A program made the translations under genes and the position numbers. 23,263 nt of DNA from assembly GCA_001303705.1 (NCBI GenBank), contig LJUI01000024.1, positions 1 to 23,263 on the forward strand. Direction: 5' to 3'. Source of the DNA: a candidate division TA06 bacterium SM23_40. Lineage in GTDB: Bacteria > LJUI01 > SM1-40. Shown here piece after piece: positions 3,098 to 22,754 of this stretch; within the stretch, counting starts at the first letter, position 1, and the number at the start of each line of letters is the position of its first letter. The notes under the pieces are model-generated. The model was not told where the DNA came from, ran no database searches, and was given only the letters and a program-made list of their open reading frames with translations.

Positions 3098-4291
3098 CTA
3101 CTGGTAGCTCTTCCATTTCGCCTCGAGCTTCTTGTCCTGAAGCGTTTCCATGATGTAGTCGGCGAGCTCCTGGCCGGTCGCCCCGTCGGACCGACCGGTG
3201 ATGGCGAGCTTCCGCTCATGCTGGCCGCAGATGTCGAGCGCCATCTCGAGCATCTTCGCTCTGTCAGGGAAGCCGATGTGCGAGAGGAGCATGGCCGCAG
3301 CCCTGATCATGCTGCTCGGATCGGCATACTGCGCCCTGTTTTCGCGTACCATTCTCGGCGCCGAACCGTGGATCGCCTCGAACATGGCGTAGCGCTTTCC
3401 GATATTTGCGCTCCCCGCGGTGCCGACCCCACCCTGAAACTCCGCTGCCTCATCGGTCAGAATATCCCCGTATAGGTTCGGAAGAGCCATCACCTTGAAC
3501 TGCGTGCGACGCTTCTGATCCACGAGCTTAGCAGTCATGATATCGATATACCAATCATCGACCTCGATCTCGGGGTACTCCCTGGCGATCTCCTGACCGA
3601 TCTTGAGAAATTTCCCGTCGGTCGTCTTGACGACGTTCGCCTTCGTCACGAGCGTGACTTTATTGACCCCGTTCTTCTTTGCGTACTCGAACGCCGCCCT
3701 GATGATACGGTCAGAGCCCTGCGTCGTCGTAACCGTGAAATCGACCGCCAGGTCCTCTGTAACGTCGACGCCGTTACTCCCCAGGGCGTACGCTCCCTCG
3801 GTATTCTCCCGGAAGAACATCCAGTCGATGCCCTCCTTGGGGACTTTGACAGGACGCACGTTGGCAAACAGGTCCAGTTCCTTCCGCATCGCGACGTTCG
3901 CACTCTCCACATTGGGCCAGGGATCGCCTCTCCTCGGCGTCGTTGTCGGGCCCTTGAGGAGCACGTGGCACTTCTTGATCTCTGCGAGGACGTCGCCAGG
4001 TATCGGCTTGTTGTGCTTGGCCCGATTCTCTATCGTCAGTCCCTCGATGACCCGGAATTCGACCTTGCCCGATTTCTGCTCATCCTCAAGCATGAACTCG
4101 AGAACACGCTGAGCCTGGGCGGCGATATACGGACCGATGCCATCGCCCCCGATGATACCGATGATGATCGGCCTCAATGCCTCGAAGTCGAGCCAGTCCT
4201 CAGCCGCCTTCATTCGATCGACACGCGCTAACTGCTGCTCCAACACAGCGCCGAAGTGTTCCTTCGCCTTCTCCACAGCTTCACTGCTCAT
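3098..4291 (-). CDS. Isocitrate/isopropylmalate-family dehydrogenase, probably isocitrate dehydrogenase
   Basis: A 397-residue beta-decarboxylating dehydrogenase. Seen in order: GDGIGP (49-54), KGPTTTP (113-119), the substrate loop S130-A-N132-V-A-M-R136 with ELDLFANVRPV (R146), RENTEGAYA, TKANVVK, DWYIDIMTAKLV with metal-binding Asp, LPNLYGDILTDE, and the cofactor loop HGSAP. The S-x-N-x-x-x-R spacing is that of isocitrate dehydrogenase, which oxidises isocitrate to 2-oxoglutarate. After HGSAP the residues are R-M, where E. coli NADP-enzyme has K-Y and NAD-type relatives have D-I, so the cofactor is unclear. A homologue using another 3-substituted malate is possible. The ATG at 4291 follows GGAGGAGACAC. 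It lies 84 nt downstream of the thioredoxin-like gene on the same strand and may share its transcript. Confidence 0.85.
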   Translation of the reverse strand: MSSEAVEKAKEHFGAVLEQQLARVDRMKAAEDWLDFEALRPIIIGIIGGDGIGPYIAAQAQRVLEFMLEDEQKSGKVEFRVIEGLTIENRAKHNKPIPGDVLAEIKKCHVLLKGPTTTPRRGDPWPNVESANVAMRKELDLFANVRPVKVPKEGIDWMFFRENTEGAYALGSNGVDVTEDLAVDFTVTTTQGSDRIIRAAFEYAKKNGVNKVTLVTKANVVKTTDGKFLKIGQEIAREYPEIEVDDWYIDIMTAKLVDQKRRTQFKVMALPNLYGDILTDEAAEFQGGVGTAGSANIGKRYAMFEAIHGSAPRMVRENRAQYADPSSMIRAAAMLLSHIGFPDRAKMLEMALDICGQHERKLAITGRSDGATGQELADYIMETLQDKKLEAKWKSYQ

Positions 4292-4317
4292 GTGTCTCCT
4301 CCGTCTCCGCGACAGAT

Positions 4318-4351
4318 GAGCCCGACGCCTGCCGTGACTCTCATCGGGCTC
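4318..4351 (-). promoter_or_regulatory. Stem-loop between the thioredoxin-like and dehydrogenase genes
   Basis: GAGCCCGA (4318-4325) pairs with TCGGGCTC (4344-4351) over an 18-nt loop. It sits in the 84-nt gap between two genes on the minus strand and has no T-run. It could be a partial terminator or an mRNA processing or stability element. Confidence 0.35.
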
Positions 4352-4375
4352 GAGTTGACTCCTCCTGCCGGCTCT

Positions 4376-4891
4376 TCAAACCTCCCCCTCTTCTCGTTCA
4401 CGCGTGGCTTCGTCGAGCCACCCGGCGATTCGGTCCGGCGAGGGTACGCTGCCGACAGACTTCACTACTCCGTCTATGATCAACGCCGGTGTACTGACTA
4501 CCCCGTAGTCCGCTATTGCCGCAATGTCGGTGACGTGCCGGATATCGGCCCGTATGCCGAGCTCGCTCAGCACCGCCATCGTCCTCTGCATCAGCATATC
4601 ACACGGGGGACAGCCGGGGCCCAGGACGCGGATCTCCAGCGCCGTGCTCTCCCTCCCTTCGTCGGCCACCGGCTCTCCGATAAACCGCTTGAACTCACGC
4701 AGGAGAGCGGCGGCATAGCGTTCGCGGGATGCAAGAGGGACGTAGTTACGCGCCGCGACCAAAGCGATGAGCCTCTCGGCTCTTCGAGCGTCATCCTCTC
4801 CGCCTTCGTCCCTGACTGCCCGGAACGCCGCATCGAGGCCCACCAGGCCGACCGACATCCCATCCACCATGATCTCTCTGACCTCGTCCAT
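4376..4891 (-). CDS. Thioredoxin-like CPPC protein with N-terminal helical domain
   Basis: From the ATG at 4891 this is 171 residues. The C-terminal 80 or so are a small thioredoxin fold of the glutaredoxin-like/redox-active-disulfide type: a beta strand IRVLGPG, the redox motif CPPC (94-97), a helix, and the cis-proline loop VSTPAL. The N-terminal 80 residues are helical, with VDGMSVGLVGLD and NYVPLASRERYAAALLREF; I cannot name that domain. Expected role: cytoplasmic thiol-disulfide exchange, partner unknown. Frame-open sequence continues to a GTG at 4942, which would overlap the PEPCK stop by 16 nt but lacks a ribosome binding site; the ATG at 4891 has GGCGGAG (very close) and GCGGAGG upstream. 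The gene follows the PEPCK gene and is probably cotranscribed with it. Confidence 0.72.
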   Translation of the reverse strand: MDEVREIMVDGMSVGLVGLDAAFRAVRDEGGEDDARRAERLIALVAARNYVPLASRERYAAALLREFKRFIGEPVADEGRESTALEIRVLGPGCPPCDMLMQRTMAVLSELGIRADIRHVTDIAAIADYGVVSTPALIIDGVVKSVGSVPSPDRIAGWLDEATREREEGEV

Positions 4892-4926
4892 GATCTCCGC
4901 CGACCTCCGCGCGAGGGGCGCGACGG

Positions 4927-6876
4927 CTAACGCTGCCTCCACCCTCGCGGCCGCGGCAGCCGCGCTTTCGATTCCCCCGGCCGCGCGGCCTCTGCCGCCT
5001 TCTCCTCGGGTCCCCCGGCTTGCTCCTCTGTGCCCGAGGAGCTCGCCGATTCAGCCGGGGGGGACTCGCTGCCTACGGCGGCCGGCGCGGCGCTCGCCGA
5101 CTCGTCAGATGCTCCTTCTTCTGCGCGGGCGAACGCGACCCGTGCGCGCAGCCGCCGCGCAGCCGCCAACGATCGCTCGGCTGCTGCAACGATCTCGGGC
5201 TTCAGGCCCTCCTCAGCGATCTCCTCCGTGAACTTGCGTCGCCCATCGAAGATATCCCTGATGTAATCGTCGATCTCTTCCTGAGAGTAGAAGTTCGACG
5301 GGTCGTACTCACTCAGGCTGTGCCCTTCGACATAGACGATCTCGTCCCGACCGAGGCGGCCGCGTTGGTACTGGTTTGTTCCACGCAGATCCCCACGCTG
5401 GATTGCCGCCATGAGGTTGATTGGCACTCTAACGGGCTTCCTGATCTGTCTCTTCTTCTTGATCTCCCCTACGGTGACCGTTTCGAGTATCTCACCCACG
5501 CCGCCCGTGTTGTACTGGTAGAACCTGACCTTGCCCGGGTACTTATCGATGAGCTTCATCACGATGTCATAGAACCTGTTCGTCTTCCTCGCTCGCGATC
5601 CGATGATGAACGGGTCGGTGCCGACGATCCTGACCGACTCACCCGCACGGTGTGGCTGCGAGGCATAGCTGTGGGTCGACTCGCCCCACAGGTACGCGAG
5701 GATCGCCTGTTCCGGGGTCAGCTCGATCGCAAACGGCATGACCGTGTTCCGCCTCGTGATGAACGCAAGGATGATTCCATCCAGATCGTCGAGCGAGGAT
5801 AGGTCGATGCTCCTGGAGCTGATGCCAACGAGTCGCCGCCCCCTCCTGATGCGGAGTTTCTCGCGCTGTATCACAGCCCGCCCGTTTGCAGTCAGGCTCT
5901 CATCGAGGAAATCGACGTTCCCGTCCGAATCGATCATCACATTCTCATACAGCGCCGTACTATCGATCAGCGCGTGATACATCGCCTCCTGCAGTTTCTC
6001 GTCGACATCAGTCTTGACGAAGAACCCCACCTCCGTCCCCAATGCGGTCCCATCCTGCCTGAGGAAGACGATATCGTCTTGCGCGACTTCAGTCCTCTCT
6101 CCGTCCTCATATCGCAGACCCAGCTGGTGGCACGCCCAGGTCGACTTGCCGGTAGCCGTCAGGCCGAACATGAAGACACCGTAGGTCTTCAGCTTCCCTT
6201 CTTTGGCATCGCGCACGGTCACGAGCTTGGTGCCGGCGTGGAGCCCCAGCATTCCGTGTTCGTCAGCGTACCACATCGCCTGGCGGAGGAATCCTTTCTT
6301 GTCCTCTCCCATGTAGTCTGTGCCGAGAGCAATGTTGAGATTGTACTCGGGAAGCACGAGCACCTGCTGGCGCAGCTGGTGCTCCTCCGGAATATGGATC
6401 ATGGTGAACTCCGGGCCGGGGCGCCGCCGCGACGGCTTGGCCACGGTATTGCCCCACATATACGCGATGCGGTAGTTCTTCTGGTCGGCGCCAGAGACGT
6501 ACAGATTGCAGATCGGGTTATAGACGTCGTTCTGGCCCATCTGGCGACTGATGCAGACGAACGGCAGTGTGCGCATCAGGTGGAGCACCCTATGGAGCTC
6601 TTCCGGAGCATTCTCAATGAGGTCTCGCTGCAGATCGGTCGGGCGCGGCAGACGCACCGACTCGCTCCCGAGATAGACAGTCCGCGGCGCAACCCGGCTC
6701 GAGACCGACGACCGCCACCCATAGGACCCGAACTTCGTCCTCGTCGCCGTCTGCAGGGCCAGCGGCCTGAGAGTATCGAGCTTCATGTGCCGGATATTCG
6801 GACCCTTCAGCACAGGAACGAGGTTCTCATAGAACCGCCTGTACACTTCGTTGTCGTAGATGTCGCTGCTCCCCAT
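4927..6876 (-). CDS. pckA: Divergent ATP-type phosphoenolpyruvate carboxykinase with acidic/Ala-rich tail
   Basis: A 649-residue protein; family members are about 530. PEPCK converts oxaloacetate and ATP to PEP, CO2 and ADP. Matching E. coli PckA by eye: TDYMGEDKKG (186-195) aligns with the TWYGGEMKKG block, H213 with the metal-binding His, the P-loop is GLTATGKST (238-246) instead of GLSGTGKTT, the kinase-2 Asp pair is D267-D268, and R333 lies in TANGR where E. coli has ENTR. LTPEQA (386-391) is also conserved. The usual IGDDEHGW block is replaced by AQDDIVF, so this is a distant branch. The last 70 residues or so are low-complexity Ala/Glu/Ser/Pro and end in basic residues. The ATG at 6876 has AGGAG about 11 nt upstream. 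Same-strand neighbours are the thioredoxin-like and dehydrogenase genes. PEPCK activity is likely; another substrate is possible. Confidence 0.8.
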   Translation of the reverse strand: MGSSDIYDNEVYRRFYENLVPVLKGPNIRHMKLDTLRPLALQTATRTKFGSYGWRSSVSSRVAPRTVYLGSESVRLPRPTDLQRDLIENAPEELHRVLHLMRTLPFVCISRQMGQNDVYNPICNLYVSGADQKNYRIAYMWGNTVAKPSRRRPGPEFTMIHIPEEHQLRQQVLVLPEYNLNIALGTDYMGEDKKGFLRQAMWYADEHGMLGLHAGTKLVTVRDAKEGKLKTYGVFMFGLTATGKSTWACHQLGLRYEDGERTEVAQDDIVFLRQDGTALGTEVGFFVKTDVDEKLQEAMYHALIDSTALYENVMIDSDGNVDFLDESLTANGRAVIQREKLRIRRGRRLVGISSRSIDLSSLDDLDGIILAFITRRNTVMPFAIELTPEQAILAYLWGESTHSYASQPHRAGESVRIVGTDPFIIGSRARKTNRFYDIVMKLIDKYPGKVRFYQYNTGGVGEILETVTVGEIKKKRQIRKPVRVPINLMAAIQRGDLRGTNQYQRGRLGRDEIVYVEGHSLSEYDPSNFYSQEEIDDYIRDIFDGRRKFTEEIAEEGLKPEIVAAAERSLAAARRLRARVAFARAEEGASDESASAAPAAVGSESPPAESASSSGTEEQAGGPEEKAAEAARPGESKARLPRPRGWRQR

Positions 6877-7339: not shown

Positions 7340-7422
7340 GCTAACCATCGGCCGGTGGCACATCGTGGGCCACGCCGCACCGGCATAGCGAATCACGGCC
7401 GTCCTCGCGAGGCCCTGACGGC
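7340..7422 (+). promoter_or_regulatory. Structured leader upstream of the flotillin gene
   Basis: The first stem-loop has GCTA (7340-7343) pairing with TAGC (7386-7389) and, inside it, GCCGGTG (7351-7357) pairing with CACCGGC (7378-7384). The second pairs GCCGTC (7398-7403) with GACGGC (7417-7422). The ribosome binding site GGGAGGAGG follows at 7451. I cannot assign it to a known riboswitch class. Confidence 0.3.
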
Positions 7423-7462: not shown

Positions 7463-8956
7463 ATGACACTCGTCGGTTGGCTCATTCTGGCTGGCGCAAT
7501 AGTAGTCGCGCTTGGATTACTTGTCCTGGCCATGTGGAAGCAGTATCGCAAGGTGGGGCCGAACCAGGTCCTCATCATCTCCGGAGGCAGGCGGCGAACG
7601 GTCATCGACCGCGATGGCACGAAACGGAAGATCGGGTACCGCACGCACATCGGCGGCGGCACCTTCGTCCTCCCGTTTCTCGAAAGCGCCCAGGTCCTCT
7701 CGCTCGAGGTGTTCACGCTGGGTATCGAAACCCCAGAGGTCCTCACACAGGAGGGAGTCCCGATTCTCGCGCAGGGCCTTGCCCAGGTGAAGGTACGGGG
7801 CGATGAACACTCGATCCGTCTCGCAGCGGAGCAGTTTCTCGGGAAGGGACCAGAGGGAATCAGGGAGATTGCCAACCAGATCCTTGAAGGGCATATGCGG
7901 AATGTCATCGGCACGATGACGGTGCAGCAGATCTATCAGAATCGTGAGGACTTCGCACGTAAGGTCGTGGAGGCTGGTTCGCAGGACTACACTGCGATGG
8001 GTCTTCAGATCCTCTCATTCGCCCTCAAGGACATTGCAGACACGCAAGGATATATCGAGGCACTCGGAAAGCCGCAGGTGGCGGCAGTGAAGCGAGATGC
8101 CGCGATCGCCGAGGCGGAGACGGAACGGGACGCCACGATCAAGTCCGCCCTCGCACGCAAAGAGGGAGACGTCGTCAAGTTCCAGGCCGAGACCGAGGTT
8201 TCCGAAGCCAGCCGGGACTATGAGGCGAAGCGCGCCGAGTTCCAGGCCCTCATCAACAAGAAGCGGGCTGCAGCCGATCTTGCCTATGATCTGGAGCGCC
8301 ATCGGGTCGGCCAGGAGCTGAAGCTGGAAGAATACAAAGTCAAGATCGTCGAGAAGGAACAGGCAGCCATCGTCGAAGAGAAGGAGATCGAGCGCCGCGA
8401 GAAGGAACTCGAGGCGACCGTCAAGAAGCAGGCTGATGCGGAGAGGTATCGTGTGCAGGCGTTGGCCGATGCCGAGAGCTATCGGCTCGAGAGCGAGGCG
8501 AAGGGACGCACGGAGGCGAAGAAGCTCGAAGGAGCCGCCGCAGCCGAAGGGATTCGCGCGCACGGGTGGGCCGAGGCCGACGCGATGAGAAAGAAAGCCG
8601 AGGCCTGGCGGGAGTACAACGAGGCAGCAGTCTATCAGATGTTCGTCGAGATGCTCCCGCAGCTGGCTCGAGCCGTGGCCGAGCCGCTCTCGAAGGTCGA
8701 AAAGATCGTCCTTGTGGGGAGCGGAGATGGTCCGGGCGCATCGCAGATAACTGGCCAGGTGGCGAAGGTCCTGGCGCAGCTCCCGGTCGTGATCGAATCT
8801 CTCACCGGCATAGACATAAAGGCGATGCTTGAGAAGCGCACAGGCCAGCCGGGCGACCAAGCAGCTGGGATAGTGCCGTCAGACAGCGCCGCGACCGGCA
8901 AAGAGCCCGAAGAGGAGGGACCCCACCCCAGGACCGGGCGGCGGAAGGGCAACTGA
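7463..8956 (+). CDS. Flotillin-family SPFH-domain membrane scaffold protein
   Basis: A 497-residue protein. An N-terminal hydrophobic anchor (about 5-25) is followed by the SPFH domain, recognisable from VGPNQVLIISGGRRR through VLTQEGVPI, QFLGKGPEGIREIANQILEGHMR and MGLQILSFALKDIADTQGYIEALG. A long charged coiled coil follows (about 215-400), rich in EAE/AEA heptads. It then has the flotillin-type C-terminal oligomerisation region and a hydrophilic tail. Bacterial flotillins scaffold membrane microdomains and affect fluidity and signalling. The open frame extends upstream to 7355, but the ATG at 7463 is chosen because GGGAGGAGG lies just before it and the anchor starts there. The gene is 71 nt upstream of the aminotransferase-kinase fusion on the same strand, with no obvious promoter between them, so the two may be cotranscribed. 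The anchor has no cleavage site. Confidence 0.9.
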   Translation: MTLVGWLILAGAIVVALGLLVLAMWKQYRKVGPNQVLIISGGRRRTVIDRDGTKRKIGYRTHIGGGTFVLPFLESAQVLSLEVFTLGIETPEVLTQEGVPILAQGLAQVKVRGDEHSIRLAAEQFLGKGPEGIREIANQILEGHMRNVIGTMTVQQIYQNREDFARKVVEAGSQDYTAMGLQILSFALKDIADTQGYIEALGKPQVAAVKRDAAIAEAETERDATIKSALARKEGDVVKFQAETEVSEASRDYEAKRAEFQALINKKRAAADLAYDLERHRVGQELKLEEYKVKIVEKEQAAIVEEKEIERREKELEATVKKQADAERYRVQALADAESYRLESEAKGRTEAKKLEGAAAAEGIRAHGWAEADAMRKKAEAWREYNEAAVYQMFVEMLPQLARAVAEPLSKVEKIVLVGSGDGPGASQITGQVAKVLAQLPVVIESLTGIDIKAMLEKRTGQPGDQAAGIVPSDSAATGKEPEEEGPHPRTGRRKGN

Positions 8957-9027
8957 TCGAGTGACCAGTAGACGCGGCACTCGCCGGTGCCACCACCCGA
9001 CACGACGCGACGATGTGAGGAAGCCGT

Positions 9028-11457
9028 ATGATAGCTGAAAGGATCCAACGTATCGCACTCTCCCCGACGCTCAGGATCAACGCTACTGCCCTTGCGATGA
9101 AAGCGGAGGGGATAGATGTCGTCGACTTGAGCGTGGGGGAGCCGGACTTCCCCACTCCTGAGAACATCAAGGAGGCGGCAAAGCGGGCGATCGATAAGAA
9201 CATCACCAAGTACACTCCCAACGATGGCATTCCGGCGCTGAAGGAGGCGATCAGAAAGAAACTCCGCAACGAGAACGGTCTGGAGTATGGTCCGAAGGAA
9301 ATCATCGTCTCGTGCGGCGCCAAGCAATGCCTGTACAATCTCTCGGTGGCTCTGTACAACAAGGGAGAAGAGGCGATCATCCCTGCACCCTACTGGGTCT
9401 CGTATCCCCAGCAGGTGACTCTTGCCAAAGCGAACCCGGTGATCGTTCCAACCAAAGAGGAGAACGGATTCCGGATCACGCCTGAAGAGCTGAAGGCGGC
9501 GATCACTTTCAACACCAAGGCCCTCATCCTCAACAACCCCTGCAACCCCACCGGTACCGCCTATACCCGGGAGGAGCTCGAGCCCCTGATCGACATCGCC
9601 GTGGACGAAGGCATCTACATCATCGCGGACGAGATCTACGAGAAACTGGTCTATGACGACTTTCGCTTCACGAGCGCCGCCTCCCTCGGCCCGCAGATCA
9701 AGGAGCGCGCGATCGTCATCAACGGCGTTTCCAAGGCCTACTCCATGACCGGGTGGCGGATCGGGTACGCTGCCGGCCCCAAGGAGATCATCGCGGCGAT
9801 GGACAAGGTCCAGAGTCACAACACTTCGAACGCGCCCTCCATCTCGCAGATGGCGAGTCTCGAGGCGTTGACCGGACCGCAGACCGACATCCCGAAGATG
9901 GTCGCCGAGTTCCAGCGGCGCCGCAATTATGTCCTCCATCGGCTCCAGTCGCTCAGAGATGTCTCGTGCATGGTGCCGCGCGGCGCGTTCTATGTCTTCC
10001 CCAATTTCAGCGCCTACTTCGACAAAGAATTCAAGGGGATGGAGATACGGAACTCCTATGGCCTTGCCTACTATCTGCTCAAGAACGCCTTGGTCGCCAT
10101 CGTTCCCGGCGATGCCTTCGGTGCCGAGGGATTCATCCGCATCTCATACGCAACATCGATGGAGAATCTCGAGAGGGGCATGGACCGCATCATCGAAGCC
10201 GTCTCGAAATTGGAGAAGACGAGGAGAGTGCGCAAGGTCGCTCTCTCCAACGTGATGACGAAAGAACGCTCACTTGCGCCTACCGAGACTGACGTGAGTA
10301 TGGAGATGCGCAATGCGCTCGTGGGCGAGGTGGAGGCTCACCTCCGATATGACAACTACTACGAGTGGAATGCCAACATCGCCGGCGTCGTCACCCAGCT
10401 GAGGACGAACGACCACCATCTGTACGATTTCTGGATGGAGAACTGGTATCCTGCGCCGCTCGAGGCAGATCTCGAACCGCACGGCATCATCTATGCTGTC
10501 GACGGGATCCCCGGACGCGAGCCCCGCGCGTTCTACAACTCGGAGTCGAAGAGCGGAATCATCATCAACACCACCTACTATGCCCAACTCAGAGCGTGGG
10601 CGATCGGGATTGTCACCGACATCACAGAGCGCCTGTTCGATGTCCACTCAGTTCACGGAGCCTGCCTCGATTTCGATGGCACCGGTCTCCTCATTATTTC
10701 CCCTCCGGGGACCGGACGCTCCACCCACCTGTACGGCCTGCTGAGCCGACCTCACGCTCGCCTCCTCTCTGATGATTGGGTCACCATCAGATATCGCGGC
10801 CAGGAGGCGATCGCCGACATCCCCGAGCGCAAGTTCTATGTCGAGACTGATATCGCCCGAAAGCACCGCGAGCTCATTGATCTATTCGATCGCAGTCGGT
10901 GCGAGAACGTGATCACTCGAAAGGACGACTGCACGGATGAAGCCTGCCTGCGCGAGGATGTCTGCCGACTCGACCGAGGTGATCCCCACTGCTACTGGGC
11001 TTCAGGCACCTCAAGGGCCATGCTCGATCCATACTGGATCGGCGGCCCGGAAAAGCACGTCAAGCGGACGACCACCCGCTGGGTGCTGGTTCTGAAGAGG
11101 GACACCAGCTCGCCGCCGCTTGCCGAGCTATCTCCGGAAAACGCGGTCGAGGCTCTCGTCGAGGGCAAGTATCCAGTTGGCGCCAGGGTCTCTTCCACCC
11201 CCTCCTCGGGATTCGGGCCAGCGGGGCGGACTGCACTCGTGGGAGTGAGCGCCGGCGGAGGGGGAGGCCTGTGGAGCGCGACAAAGGAGCCGTTCTACAA
11301 TCCCTACCTCCTAGTGCGGACCGACGAGCGGCTCGAACTCCAGAGACGGTTCTTCCAGCGGCTCGCCGCCGCGGCGTCATGGTACCATGTAAACACTGGC
11401 GTGGAGGCTCCGGAGGAGATCCAGAGGCGGATTATCGAGATGATCGGCAGCGAGTGA
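9028..11457 (+). CDS. Aspartate aminotransferase fused to a HprK/PEPCK-superfamily P-loop domain
   Basis: 809 residues in one uninterrupted frame. Residues 1-400 are a complete class I (subgroup Ib-type) aspartate aminotransferase: VGEPDFPTP, NNPCNPTG (169-176), D201-E-I-Y204, PLP lysine K236 in SKAYSMTGWR, and FIRISYATS with the carboxylate-binding R371. This half should interconvert aspartate/2-oxoglutarate and oxaloacetate/glutamate. Residues 430-809 resemble the HprK/PEPCK kinase fold: SVHG (H543), GTGLLIISPPGTGRST (551-566) as P-loop, SDDWV (581-585), then PEPCK-like ELSPENAVEALVEG and, near the end, YHVNTG. The P-loop Lys is Arg (R564), and the PEPCK active-site lysine pair has no clear counterpart. 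Five cysteines cluster at 625-655. An in-frame ATG at 10255 could give a separate second domain but has no good ribosome binding site. TGAGGAAG precedes the ATG at 9028. Nucleotide or substrate use by the second half is unknown. Confidence 0.85.
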   Translation: MIAERIQRIALSPTLRINATALAMKAEGIDVVDLSVGEPDFPTPENIKEAAKRAIDKNITKYTPNDGIPALKEAIRKKLRNENGLEYGPKEIIVSCGAKQCLYNLSVALYNKGEEAIIPAPYWVSYPQQVTLAKANPVIVPTKEENGFRITPEELKAAITFNTKALILNNPCNPTGTAYTREELEPLIDIAVDEGIYIIADEIYEKLVYDDFRFTSAASLGPQIKERAIVINGVSKAYSMTGWRIGYAAGPKEIIAAMDKVQSHNTSNAPSISQMASLEALTGPQTDIPKMVAEFQRRRNYVLHRLQSLRDVSCMVPRGAFYVFPNFSAYFDKEFKGMEIRNSYGLAYYLLKNALVAIVPGDAFGAEGFIRISYATSMENLERGMDRIIEAVSKLEKTRRVRKVALSNVMTKERSLAPTETDVSMEMRNALVGEVEAHLRYDNYYEWNANIAGVVTQLRTNDHHLYDFWMENWYPAPLEADLEPHGIIYAVDGIPGREPRAFYNSESKSGIIINTTYYAQLRAWAIGIVTDITERLFDVHSVHGACLDFDGTGLLIISPPGTGRSTHLYGLLSRPHARLLSDDWVTIRYRGQEAIADIPERKFYVETDIARKHRELIDLFDRSRCENVITRKDDCTDEACLREDVCRLDRGDPHCYWASGTSRAMLDPYWIGGPEKHVKRTTTRWVLVLKRDTSSPPLAELSPENAVEALVEGKYPVGARVSSTPSSGFGPAGRTALVGVSAGGGGGLWSATKEPFYNPYLLVRTDERLELQRRFFQRLAAAASWYHVNTGVEAPEEIQRRIIEMIGSE

Positions 11458-14003: not shown

Positions 14004-14081
14004 TCCAGGAATCCCGGACAGTGGAACTCAATTCGCGGACCCTGCCTCCTCTCGCGTCGATTGCCGCGCGCAATCACATCG

Positions 14082-14212
14082 CGGCGAATTCGAGGTCGCT
14101 CCGCCGCCCCTCAGTAACGAGGAAGTCCCGGTACGTGTCACACCGCCCGGCCAGCTCATCGTCCGTCCCTCCATCGACAAGCCGACCGTCATGGAAGATG
14201 AATACCGTCAGC
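14082..14212 (-). pseudogene. 3' remnant of an ABC exporter ATP-binding/permease gene
   Basis: On the minus strand this stretch encodes FHDGRLVDGGTDDELAGRC followed by DTYRDFLVTEGRRSDLEFAA and a stop. It matches almost residue for residue the last 40 or so codons of the intact exporter gene at 19080-20849. Before this point the match is lost through an apparent small deletion and frameshift near 14205-14215, and no Walker or signature motifs follow. It lies about 80 nt after the MFP stop, in the same convergent orientation that the intact exporter has to the MFP remnant. It is therefore the stub of a duplicated gene, not an independent coding region. Confidence 0.85.
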
Positions 14213-19079: not shown

Positions 19080-20849
19080 CTAGGTGGCCGCGAATTCGAG
19101 GTCGCTCCGCCGCTCCTCAGTAACGAGGAAGTCCCGGTACGTATCACACCTCCCGGCCAGCTCATCATGAGTCCCCGTGTCAACTAGTCGACCGTCGTCG
19201 AAAACGAAGATCGTGTCTGCCCGCGTGATCGTTGAGAGACGATGTGATATGAGAAGGCACGTAGTGTCAGGGAGGACACTGAACAGCCGATTCCAGAAGC
19301 GATCTTCGTTTCGTGCGTCGAGCGAAGCAGTGCAGTCATCGAGAAGCAGCACCTCGGGATGATGAGCTATCGCTCGCGCGATCGCAATCCGCTGTTTCTG
19401 GCCGCCGGAAATGAGCGTGCCCTTCTGCCCCAGCACCGTGTCGATTCCCCCGGGAAGCTCTTCCAGATCGTCGTCCATCTGACTGATCGAGAGACACTCT
19501 CTGAGCCAGTCGTCGGCAACCGAACGTCCGAAAGAAACATTCTCCCCGATCGACTCCGAAAAGAGGAGCGATTCCTGGGGGACGTATCCGATCCGCTCTC
19601 TGTACGTCCGCCAGTCCCAGCTAGCGAGCGGACGACCGTTGACGAGCACCTCCCCCTTCTGCGGGACGAGGAGGCCCGCGGTCACCTTGAGCAAGGTCGA
19701 TTTCCCGCTCGCCACCGGCCCCACGAGCGCAATCCGCTTCCCGAAGGGTATGCGAAGATCGACTTCTGATAGAGCTGGACGCCCGTCATCATATGAGAAC
19801 GTAACCCTCTGGAAAGCGATCTCCTCGATCTTCTCCAGCTCTGGACCTTCCTCGCGGTGGATGACTTGCACCGGGTAATCGCGCAGCTCATCTTCTCGAT
19901 CCATGCAGACGAACGCCACCCGCGATGTGGCGAAGAGATTCGGCACATCCATCATCGGGAATATCAACATGTCGAGGTAGACATAGAAGGCGTACAGAGC
20001 ACCGATGGTGAGCTCTCCGCGGAGCACCATGTACCCACCGACCGCCAGGACGATGACCTGTCCCATCCGGCTCGCCACGGTATCGAACGAGTGAACGGCA
20101 ACCATGAGCTTGGCCGTCCTGAGCTGCACACCGATACGATGCTGAAGGAGTTGGTCGAGCCGCCGCGCCTGCCCCGCCTCGGCACAGAACGCCTTGACGA
20201 TCCGTATCCCCGAAAACGCCGCCTCGAGCAGACTATTGGTCTCCGAGGTAGACCGTTGCTGCTCGTCCCAGGCATCCGAGAGCCGCGTCCTCAACAAGTA
20301 GAAGAAGTACAGCATGGCCGGAATTGGAGCCGTCGAGAGGAGCGCCAGTCTCCAGTCGAGGATGAACATCGCCCCGATACAGAAGATGAGCTTCGACCCC
20401 GACTCGACGGCCCGGAAGATACCTGAGCAACAGAACCACGCGATCTTCGGATAATCCGCGATGTCATCGGTGAGCCGCGTGATGATGTCACCGGTGCGGA
20501 AATGGTTCAAGAATCGATAGTCCTTCTTGAGAACCTCGCCGAAGATGTCCTCTCTGATGGCGACCTCGAGCTTCAAGTTCGTCCAGCCCCTGAATGCCGG
20601 GTAGAATCCCGCGATGAATCGACCCACGCCGATCACAGCGAGGATGATCATGATCCGGCCGAGATTGAAGGAAGCCGGATCATCCGATCCCAGAGCCGCC
20701 GTCACCTCGTCGATGATCGTCCGGAAGACGAGAGGGAACGCGATCGCCACGGCGCTCGACACAAGGGTGAAAATGAACAGGGCGACAAGCACGCGCCGGT
20801 GCGGCCTCCAGTATGACCAGATCCAGCCAATTCGCTTCGACAGAACCAT
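19080..20849 (-). CDS. Heterodimeric ABC exporter, subunit with degenerate catalytic site
   Basis: 589 residues with an N-terminal six-helix exporter domain (about 1-320) and a C-terminal ATPase. Motifs: Walker A GPVASGKST (377-385), Q-loop YVPQESLLF (Q425), signature LISGGQKQR (479-487), Walker B VLLLDD (500-505) and the switch His in LLISHRLS (H536). The residue after Walker B is Asp505 where active ATPases have Glu, the mark of the degenerate site in heterodimeric type IV exporters such as TM287/288. Its own signature is canonical, so it completes the active site of the partner. The ATG at 20849 directly abuts the partner's TAG, so the two are translationally coupled, with GGGGAG inside the upstream gene as ribosome binding site. 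Exported substrate unknown: lipid, glycolipid, drug or peptide. A 3' remnant of a paralogue lies at 14082-14212. Confidence 0.92.
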   Translation of the reverse strand: MVLSKRIGWIWSYWRPHRRVLVALFIFTLVSSAVAIAFPLVFRTIIDEVTAALGSDDPASFNLGRIMIILAVIGVGRFIAGFYPAFRGWTNLKLEVAIREDIFGEVLKKDYRFLNHFRTGDIITRLTDDIADYPKIAWFCCSGIFRAVESGSKLIFCIGAMFILDWRLALLSTAPIPAMLYFFYLLRTRLSDAWDEQQRSTSETNSLLEAAFSGIRIVKAFCAEAGQARRLDQLLQHRIGVQLRTAKLMVAVHSFDTVASRMGQVIVLAVGGYMVLRGELTIGALYAFYVYLDMLIFPMMDVPNLFATSRVAFVCMDREDELRDYPVQVIHREEGPELEKIEEIAFQRVTFSYDDGRPALSEVDLRIPFGKRIALVGPVASGKSTLLKVTAGLLVPQKGEVLVNGRPLASWDWRTYRERIGYVPQESLLFSESIGENVSFGRSVADDWLRECLSISQMDDDLEELPGGIDTVLGQKGTLISGGQKQRIAIARAIAHHPEVLLLDDCTASLDARNEDRFWNRLFSVLPDTTCLLISHRLSTITRADTIFVFDDGRLVDTGTHDELAGRCDTYRDFLVTEERRSDLEFAAT

Positions 20850-22649
20850 CTACGCTATCTCCCCGGACTTGAACTGGAGGTCGAAGAGCGCCCGGTAAAT
20901 ACCGTTCCGCTCGTACAATTCCTCGTGGTCCCCCTCCTCCACGAGCTTGCCCCTGTGAAGCACGAGAATGCGATCGGCAGAGACGATAGTCGCGAGTCTG
21001 TGCGCCACCACGATAGAGGTCCTCCCCTCGAACAGGCGGGCGAGGGCCGCCTGTATCTCACGCTCGGTCGCCGGATCGACCGATGCGGTCGCCTCGTCGA
21101 GCACGAGGATATCCGGGTCGCGGACCACGGCACGCCCGAAAGAGATGAGCTGCCGCTCGCCCATCGAGAGGTTGGCACCACCCTCGGCTAGCTCAGTCTC
21201 ATATCCCTCGGACAATCGCTCGATCACCTTCTCGGCCTGTACGGTCCTCACGGCCTGCTCCACCGCCTCAGGTGAGATGTCGTCGGCGAGGGCTCGGAGG
21301 TTCTCACCCACGCTCCCGGGGAAAAGATGTATGTCCTGTAAAACGAGACCGATCTTCTCCCGCCACGCTCTCTGCCGATACCCTTTGATATCCACCCCGT
21401 CGAGCGTGATCTTGCCCTCGGTCGGCTCGTAGTAGCGAAGGAGAAGATTGGTGACCGTAGTCTTCCCGCCTCCGGACTCCCCTGCCAGGGCGATACGCTC
21501 CCCCCGATTCACGACGAACGAGAGCCCATCGAGCGCCTTCTGTCCGCCATCGTATGAGAAACTGACGTTCTCGAATGCGAGCTGCTGCCAATCATCGGGA
21601 ACCGTCTCGCGGGCACCGGGGTAGTCAGGGGTCTTCGAGGGAGTATCGAGAACCGCGAAGACACGGTCCGCAGAGGCCAGGGCTCGCTGGATGAAACTCA
21701 CCTGCTCAGAGAACATGACGATCGGGAAGAAGAGCCGCCTCGTGTACTCGAGAAAGAGGACAAGTGTCCCCACGGTCATTCCAGTCCCGAACACCTGCCG
21801 CGATCCGACCCAGATGATCACCATCACTGCCGCCACTTCGAGCGTCCAGAGAACGCTCCACAGACCGTATTCGAAGAACATCGCCCCTGTCTGGACGCGG
21901 TACTTGTCGAGGTTCCGACGCCGGAGCTTCAGTCTCGCCTGCTCGATGTGCCCGTATACCTGGAGGATCGGTATGCCCTGCACATACTCGGTGAGGAAGG
22001 TCGAGATCCGGGCGTAGAGCTTCCGAATACGTCGATAGATACCGCGCAGGTACGTCAGGAAGTAGAAGGTCCCCAGGCAGAGCGGAACGCCCATCGCCAA
22101 CACCGATGCCGTCACGCGCGCATCAGCGATGAGCATGACGACGAGCACTCCAACGAGAAGCACGAGGCTCCGAAAAAGCCCGATGGCAACCTCGGAAAAG
22201 AGCATCTGGAGGCGCTCTGCATCAGACTCGACCCGGGCCATGAGCCTACCCGGCGGGTTCTTGTCGAAGTAGGCGAGGGAGAGCGTGAACAGGTGTTTGA
22301 ACATCCTGTTCTTGAGCCGGGTGACGATCCGGAGGCCCATCCGCGTCGTGACGATCACCTGGAGGTACCCGGCCCCCATACCCACGATGAAGATCAGGGC
22401 GTATGCGACAGCACTTCGCACGATGCCGGCCCTATCCCCGCCCGTGATGTCGTGGTCGATCAGATAGCGCAGAACGAGGGGACCACCGATCTCGGCCGCC
22501 ACGGTCACGAGCAACAGCAGGATCCCGCATGCCAACGCCCCGAGGTGCGGCCTGAGGAGGGGCAGCATCCTGCCAAGCATCCTGGCGACGCTGAGGCGCC
22601 GGATTTCTCCTTCTTCTGTGTCCAGTATCTCTTCGTCCCAATACCACAT
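20850..22649 (-). CDS. Heterodimeric ABC exporter, subunit with catalytic Glu
   Basis: 599 residues from the ATG at 22649: a short acidic N-terminus, a six-helix membrane domain and a C-terminal ATPase. Motifs: Walker A GESGGGKTT (390-398), Q-loop LVLQDIHLF, signature LSMGERQL (494-501), Walker B ILVLDEATA with catalytic Glu519, and the switch His in VVAHRLA (H550). The signature LSMGE is non-canonical, and it faces the partner's degenerate Walker B; the partner's canonical LISGGQ faces this subunit's Glu. The dimer therefore has one consensus and one degenerate ATP site. The frame is open to a GTG at 22682, but that has no ribosome binding site; the ATG at 22649 has a weak GTAGGATCT. It is the first gene of the exporter pair, behind a promoter near 22890. 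Confidence 0.9.
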   Translation of the reverse strand: MWYWDEEILDTEEGEIRRLSVARMLGRMLPLLRPHLGALACGILLLLVTVAAEIGGPLVLRYLIDHDITGGDRAGIVRSAVAYALIFIVGMGAGYLQVIVTTRMGLRIVTRLKNRMFKHLFTLSLAYFDKNPPGRLMARVESDAERLQMLFSEVAIGLFRSLVLLVGVLVVMLIADARVTASVLAMGVPLCLGTFYFLTYLRGIYRRIRKLYARISTFLTEYVQGIPILQVYGHIEQARLKLRRRNLDKYRVQTGAMFFEYGLWSVLWTLEVAAVMVIIWVGSRQVFGTGMTVGTLVLFLEYTRRLFFPIVMFSEQVSFIQRALASADRVFAVLDTPSKTPDYPGARETVPDDWQQLAFENVSFSYDGGQKALDGLSFVVNRGERIALAGESGGGKTTVTNLLLRYYEPTEGKITLDGVDIKGYRQRAWREKIGLVLQDIHLFPGSVGENLRALADDISPEAVEQAVRTVQAEKVIERLSEGYETELAEGGANLSMGERQLISFGRAVVRDPDILVLDEATASVDPATEREIQAALARLFEGRTSIVVAHRLATIVSADRILVLHRGKLVEEGDHEELYERNGIYRALFDLQFKSGEIA

Positions 22650-22754
22650 AGATCCTACCCGGTCGGTCGCGTTCTTCCTCACGGGCTACGAGATCCGGCC
22701 GGACCAGAAGGTCCAACGAAGACAGACCGCGACCCATGCCCATTCAGGAGAGAT

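Follow-up and report, generated by a model that had tools for sequence, protein, structure and literature searches.

A single open reading frame in the window, by which I mean the whole stretch of 23,263 nucleotides analysed here, has a class I aspartate aminotransferase as its N-terminal part and, as its C-terminal part, a domain labelled HK, which by its predicted fold is a shortened ATP-dependent PEPCK with a degenerate active site. The same fusion recurs in many bacterial phyla, nearly always directly downstream of a flotillin-like gene and, in about three quarters of the loci, adjoining a gene for a divergent PEPCK, here called PCK. The parts are known, and the conserved flotillin-fusion-PEPCK cluster is a new arrangement of them. 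The window is part of a 2.9 Mb draft genome, the sole representative of its phylum among the genomes compared, and the cluster is laid out in it as follows.

4927 to 6876, minus strand: the divergent ATP-PEPCK, PCK, 649 amino acids (PF01293 93.7 bits, cut-off 26.5).
7463 to 8956, plus strand: SPFH/flotillin-like gene, directly upstream of the fusion (Band_7 E 4.6e-27, Flot E 1.8e-7).
9028 to 11457, plus strand: the fusion frame, a single ATG-started open reading frame of 809 amino acids with no internal stops.
9028 to 10212, plus strand: predicted aspartate aminotransferase domain, residues 1-395, with K236 as PLP lysine and R371 as substrate arginine, from PF00155.
10213 to 10260, plus strand: linker (residues 400-411 have a pLDDT below 50 in the full-length model).
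10240 to 11454, plus strand: HK, the C-terminal domain of predicted PEPCK fold (residues 405-809) with an apparently degenerate active site, from a structure model, Foldseek and VIA.

The uninterrupted frame of 809 codons and the complete aminotransferase described in an earlier note on this DNA are both confirmed. In a Pfam search Aminotran_1_2 (PF00155) spans residues 30-388 of the fusion (E 3.4e-79, 267 bits); among 56 full-length fusions K236 is invariant and R371 is at least 90% conserved. With the domain, the PLP lysine and the substrate arginine all present, the N-terminal half is, as far as sequence goes, a complete class I aspartate aminotransferase, its aspartate specificity being predicted from its best relatives. 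The closest solved structures are the aspartate aminotransferases 6f35, 6f77 and 1j32, and the likeness to the class I-gamma enzymes (these three and 1bkg) comprises the full-length domain and both residues; however, those enzymes end where the fusion runs on, and against the NCBIfam aspartate transaminase model NF004769 the fusion scores 440 bits, below the cut-off of 617. The interval between the two aligned domains, about 10 residues, is constant across all loci. A fixed inter-domain arrangement is not predicted by the full-length monomer model, in which the two halves have no set mutual position (pTM 0.53), and channelling between them is on that model neither supported nor excluded. Class I aminotransferases are dimers, so that a monomer model would miss an arrangement present in the dimer.

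For the C-terminal half, the earlier note had proposed profile searches and structure prediction. No Pfam family is above threshold over HK: PF01293 gives no match, HPr_kinase_C (PF07475) covers 58 residues with 26.2 bits and does not reach its gathering score of 33.3, and TIGR00679 (HprK) gives 32.3 bits against a threshold of 240. The profile route was thus negative for both families, and structure prediction returned a PckA-type fold. The HK model, built on 71 natural sequences, has a pLDDT of 91.2 and matches the ATP-dependent PEPCK 1xkv in Foldseek (E 2.5e-17); VIA-align 2 aligns 339 residues of it with residues 40-455 of 1j3b (Z 28.8, rmsd 2.6), which covers the two-domain PEPCK fold. 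ATP-PEPCK structures score Z 26-29 against HK, and those of the GTP type Z 21-23. Among the structural matches listed by Foldseek and VIA there are PEPCK chains and no HprK chain, a list that does not by itself exclude HprK.

As the PEPCK match extends along the whole length of HK, the modelled domain is a shortened ATP-dependent PEPCK rather than an HPr kinase. It shares with PckA (PF01293; 1j3b, 1ayl) the whole fold and the tyrosine at the Y207 position, and retains remnants of the Walker A motif, of ENV and of the xNTG end; it differs in lacking the metal and phosphate ligands and any PF01293 match, in being fused to an aminotransferase, and in its C-terminus, since its alignment with E. 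coli PEPCK stops at residue 466 and leaves about 75 C-terminal residues of that enzyme unmatched. The likeness to HPr kinase/phosphorylase (HprK, PF07475; 1jb1, 1ko7) is local, at SxHG, the P-loop and DD, and is limited to the 58 sub-threshold residues, whereas the N-terminal half of HK aligns with the N-terminal domain of PEPCK, and most of the HK family lacks the H, K and DD required by HprK. The HprK signature around RGLG stands after the DD motif, and no RGLG-type signature is present after DD in the window protein or in the family consensus. All motifs quoted in the earlier note (SVHG, IISPPGTGRST, SDDWV, ELSPENAVEAL, YHVNTG) are found, and its assignment to the HprK/PEPCK superfamily stands, with the PEPCK-type fold it had allowed for; the HPr kinase plan it saw in the first three does not, as HK is PEPCK-type over both PEPCK domains and, by sequence, HprK-like only in the P-loop stretch. 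The fold, the decayed residues and the sub-threshold HPr_kinase_C score together speak against an HprK-type kinase as the identity of HK. Profile comparison gives E 4.6e-7 between HK and the divergent PCK and E 4.6e-4 between HK and canonical PEPCK; being closer to PCK, HK is likely to be an ancient, shortened paralogue from that family.

The positions on which the state of the active site is judged are these.

10309 to 10536, plus strand: near-invariant N-terminal stretch of HK (residues 428-503), from conservation in 91 sequences and 56 fusions.
10591 to 10593, plus strand: R522, an invariant arginine in place of the PEPCK KK pair (E. coli K212/K213).
10696 to 10725, plus strand: degenerate Walker A motif ISPPGTGRST, with R564 at the PEPCK K254 position.
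10771 to 10776, plus strand: D582-D583 (PEPCK D268/D269); only 12 of 92 copies retain the first Asp.
11182 to 11274, plus strand: insert of about 31 residues (719-749) peculiar to the window copy in the alignment, with a pLDDT below 50 and predicted to be disordered.

Conservation was counted in 91-92 HK sequences and in the 56 full-length fusions, and single residues were placed in the numbering of E. coli PEPCK through a profile alignment, not by structural superposition. On this mapping the Y207 position (Y518) is invariant in the HK family. The position of the metal-ligand histidine H232 carries Arg in 80 of 92 copies and His (H543) in the window copy. At the Walker A lysine position 65 copies have Lys, 26 Arg and one Gly; in whole lineages the P-loop reads GPKGTKKT or GPKGLKRG. 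Asp is found at the D269 position in 82 of 92 copies, Arg at the R333 position in 40 of 92. The full ligand set of PEPCK (K213, H232, K254, D268/D269, R333) is present in no fusion copy, and I read HK as a catalytically degenerate pseudo-PEPCK domain. Decay across the family at the H232, K213, D268, R333 and P-loop positions makes the new kinase suggested earlier improbable. Near-invariant instead are R428, E434, Y444, EWN446-448, N450, LRTN458-461, H464, EN471-472, EPH483-485, GR496-497 and Y503. Pseudo-enzymes are familiar among kinases; to my knowledge none is known for PEPCK.

Standalone HK homologues of 574-600 amino acids also exist (positions 8422-10143 of locus L151 in genome G009, and one in G413), in genomes without a PEPCK_ATP gene. 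Both have every PEPCK/HprK signature residue intact; the G009 homologue has Lys at the R522 position and reads YYGQLK, SIHG, GTGKST, SDDW and NTRAMLD at the signature sites. These standalone proteins are possibly active as a small PEPCK-like enzyme or kinase. With the signature intact there, the decay belongs to the fused forms.

A scan of GTDB genomes with the HK-domain alignment gave 152 relatives, and the 80 best of them serve as the loci here. In 79 of these 80, aminotransferase and HK lie in one frame, the first 88 or so aminotransferase residues of one of them (L077) sitting in another frame; in the remaining locus (L099) a contig edge cuts off the sequence before the aminotransferase, so that it begins inside HK. 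Five of the fusions are on complete chromosomes (CP070758, CP070674, CP070756, CP070766 and CP070813; loci L032, L064, L065, L075 and L085). The independent loci and complete chromosomes rule out an artefact of assembly or chance. The hosts carry about 14 phylum labels in their submitters' titles, most frequently Zixibacteria, and further Aminicenantes, Bacteroidota, Ignavibacteriota, Calditrichota, Planctomycetota, Acidobacteriota and others. The earlier note had named two findings that would speak against its proposal: homologues that always occur as two separate proteins, and a C-terminal half without an HprK/PEPCK fold. No unfused pair of aminotransferase and HK genes was met among the 80 loci, and the C-terminal model has the PEPCK fold. 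A search of viral sequences gave no relative, and one of plasmid sequences matched ordinary aminotransferases only, none of them over 80% of the query. The earlier note knew of no description of the architecture, and I find neither the fusion nor the flotillin-PEPCK-aminotransferase cluster described in 5.4 million open-access papers, a scope that makes 'undescribed' provisional.

The earlier note missed the upstream flotillin gene, the nearby divergent PEPCK gene and the HK-PCK fusion homologues discussed below. The longest frame of the flotillin-like gene starts at 7355, the probable start being the ATG at 7463. Both flotillin domains score above their Pfam cut-offs (Band_7 95.6 vs 23.6 bits, Flot 31.7 vs 27 bits), as in the bacterial flotillins FloT and p-flotillin SPFH2, whereas the NCBIfam FloT model gives 413 and does not reach its cut-off of 700. 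Of 68 testable loci, 65 have an SPFH homologue immediately upstream of the fusion, and a 66th has one about 1 kb off. For SPFH1, 2 and 5 the operon partner described is NfeD, and the principal survey of SPFH proteins in prokaryotes mentions neither aminotransferases nor PEPCK (PMC2636767); the conserved partner of the window-type gene, in contrast, is the aminotransferase-HK fusion and not NfeD. Adjacency of the genes does not prove that the fusion and the flotillin-like protein physically associate.

By its PF01293 score and its catalytic motifs (DYxGEDKKG, HAGTK, ATGKST, QDDI, ENV and NGR, invariant in 48 homologues) PCK is an ATP-dependent PEPCK, and it is the only PEPCK_ATP of the window genome. 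It lies on the same strand, at most 700 bp downstream of the fusion, in 43 of 69 loci; in 8 more it is found upstream beyond the flotillin gene, as in the window, where it is in divergent orientation across that gene from the fusion. Where no copy adjoins, PCK lies elsewhere in the genome in at least five cases. In the Saccharicenans relatives (L088, L093-L095, L105) and in L069, flotillin and fusion are retained and no PEPCK_ATP gene was found in the genome; the fusion can thus do without a PEPCK partner, and HK must also have a role of its own. A canonical full-length PEPCK is also present in 10 of 36 fusion genomes, and PCK may therefore be specialised, with a role separate from that of the canonical enzyme. 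Among 386 diverse bacterial genomes, searched directly at the protein level, a PCK more than 60% identical to that of the window occurs in five, exactly the five that have the aminotransferase-HK fusion, a co-occurrence to which I attach no probability because shared ancestry inflates it. The NCBIfam model NF006821, which this search replaced, was rejected as a PCK marker, as it also fires on ordinary PEPCK (188 of 386 genomes).

Two of the next three PCK matches in the same 386 genomes belong to a further type of protein, in which HK is fused N-terminally onto PCK, in genomes G040 and G130 (about 910 amino acids; L150:6404-9142 and G040:C107), apparently a dead and a live PEPCK in tandem. Neither a flotillin nor an aminotransferase is recognised beside the fusions of G040 and G130. 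In eight zixibacterial loci (L052, L054, L064, L065, L070, L075, L078, L090) a nucleoside diphosphate kinase gene stands between fusion and PCK. In the window, 3098-4939 on the minus strand, downstream of PCK and on its strand, encodes a member of the isocitrate/isopropylmalate dehydrogenase family and a thioredoxin-like protein (MTH895/ArsE family). Further along, a direct repeat of 128 nucleotides occurs in two copies about 5 kb apart (14081-14208 and 19087-19214, 84% identical), with no third copy in the genome; the copies flank two membrane glycosyltransferase-like genes. At 19080-22682 on the minus strand the open reading frames include two adjacent ABC transporter half-genes, probably of a heterodimeric exporter.

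From architecture and synteny, which are observed, I infer a function for the unit. Aspartate to oxaloacetate to PEP are consecutive reactions of established biochemistry, and I agree with the earlier note that oxaloacetate is the likely link. The aminotransferase half would form oxaloacetate from aspartate, and the divergent PCK would convert it with ATP to PEP; the dead HK could sense oxaloacetate or a related acid in its remaining PEPCK pocket, or else dock on the active PCK as a pseudo-subunit, a contact suggested by the natural HK-PCK fusions; and the flotillin-like protein would gather the enzymes at the membrane, the whole forming a gluconeogenic aspartate-to-PEP unit. That an aminotransferase carrying a dead PEPCK paralogue, as sensor or tether, passes aspartate-derived oxaloacetate to a dedicated PEPCK in a flotillin-linked unit is the explanation I prefer, tentatively and at somewhat short of an even chance. 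The more elaborate picture of a widespread membrane metabolon, made up of a flotillin scaffold, the aminotransferase with its pseudo-PEPCK tag and a dedicated PCK, in which the dead PEPCK copy takes or senses oxaloacetate and either hands it on to the live one or regulates that enzyme, is rather doubtful.

Alternatively, HK may be a structural adaptor only, which binds no metabolite and serves to bring the aminotransferase to the flotillin scaffold or to determine how it oligomerises. The decay of the ligand site agrees with this, as does a flotillin neighbour more constant than PCK and kept even in the Saccharicenans relatives; however, more sequence change would be expected of a mere adaptor, and near-invariant polar residues (R428, N450, R459, N461, H464, E483, H485) resemble a kept pocket or a strict interface, and I regard this alternative as unlikely. 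Quite unlikely is that the cluster serves some other end than gluconeogenesis, for instance stress- or membrane-linked homeostasis of nitrogen or aspartate, with a PCK substrate other than oxaloacetate. Flotillins are membrane-domain proteins, the ten genomes with a canonical PEPCK leave the divergent one free to differ in role, and the zixibacterial loci have the inserted kinase gene, but every canonical catalytic motif is invariant in PCK and many genomes, including that of the window, have no second PEPCK_ATP.

HK might also be an active kinase, of the HprK kind or with a small molecule as substrate, that phosphorylates the aminotransferase or another target. H543, D582-D583 and S565 in the window copy could be taken in favour, together with the standalone homologue of G009, in which the whole signature (GTGKST, SDDW, H, K, R) is kept; but Arg replaces the Walker A lysine in 26 of 92 copies, that of the window included, the site has been lost in successive lineages, HprK signature and gathering-level match are both absent, and the PEPCK fold accounts for the whole length of HK, so that I consider it very unlikely. 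A bifunctional enzyme, with both halves active and aspartate converted to PEP in one chain, would suit the fold, the order of the reactions and the invariant Y518. Yet the positions of the metal ligands K213 and H232 and of D268 and R333 are lost, HK stops some 75 residues early, and a separate, intact PCK adjoins, which makes this reading highly improbable.

Here a catalytically worn PEPCK is fused to the maker of PEPCK's own substrate, in an arrangement kept across many phyla beside a flotillin gene. The cluster is a testable, concrete case for what bacterial flotillin might organise, and for the way in which uncultured lineages may feed carbon from amino acids into gluconeogenesis.
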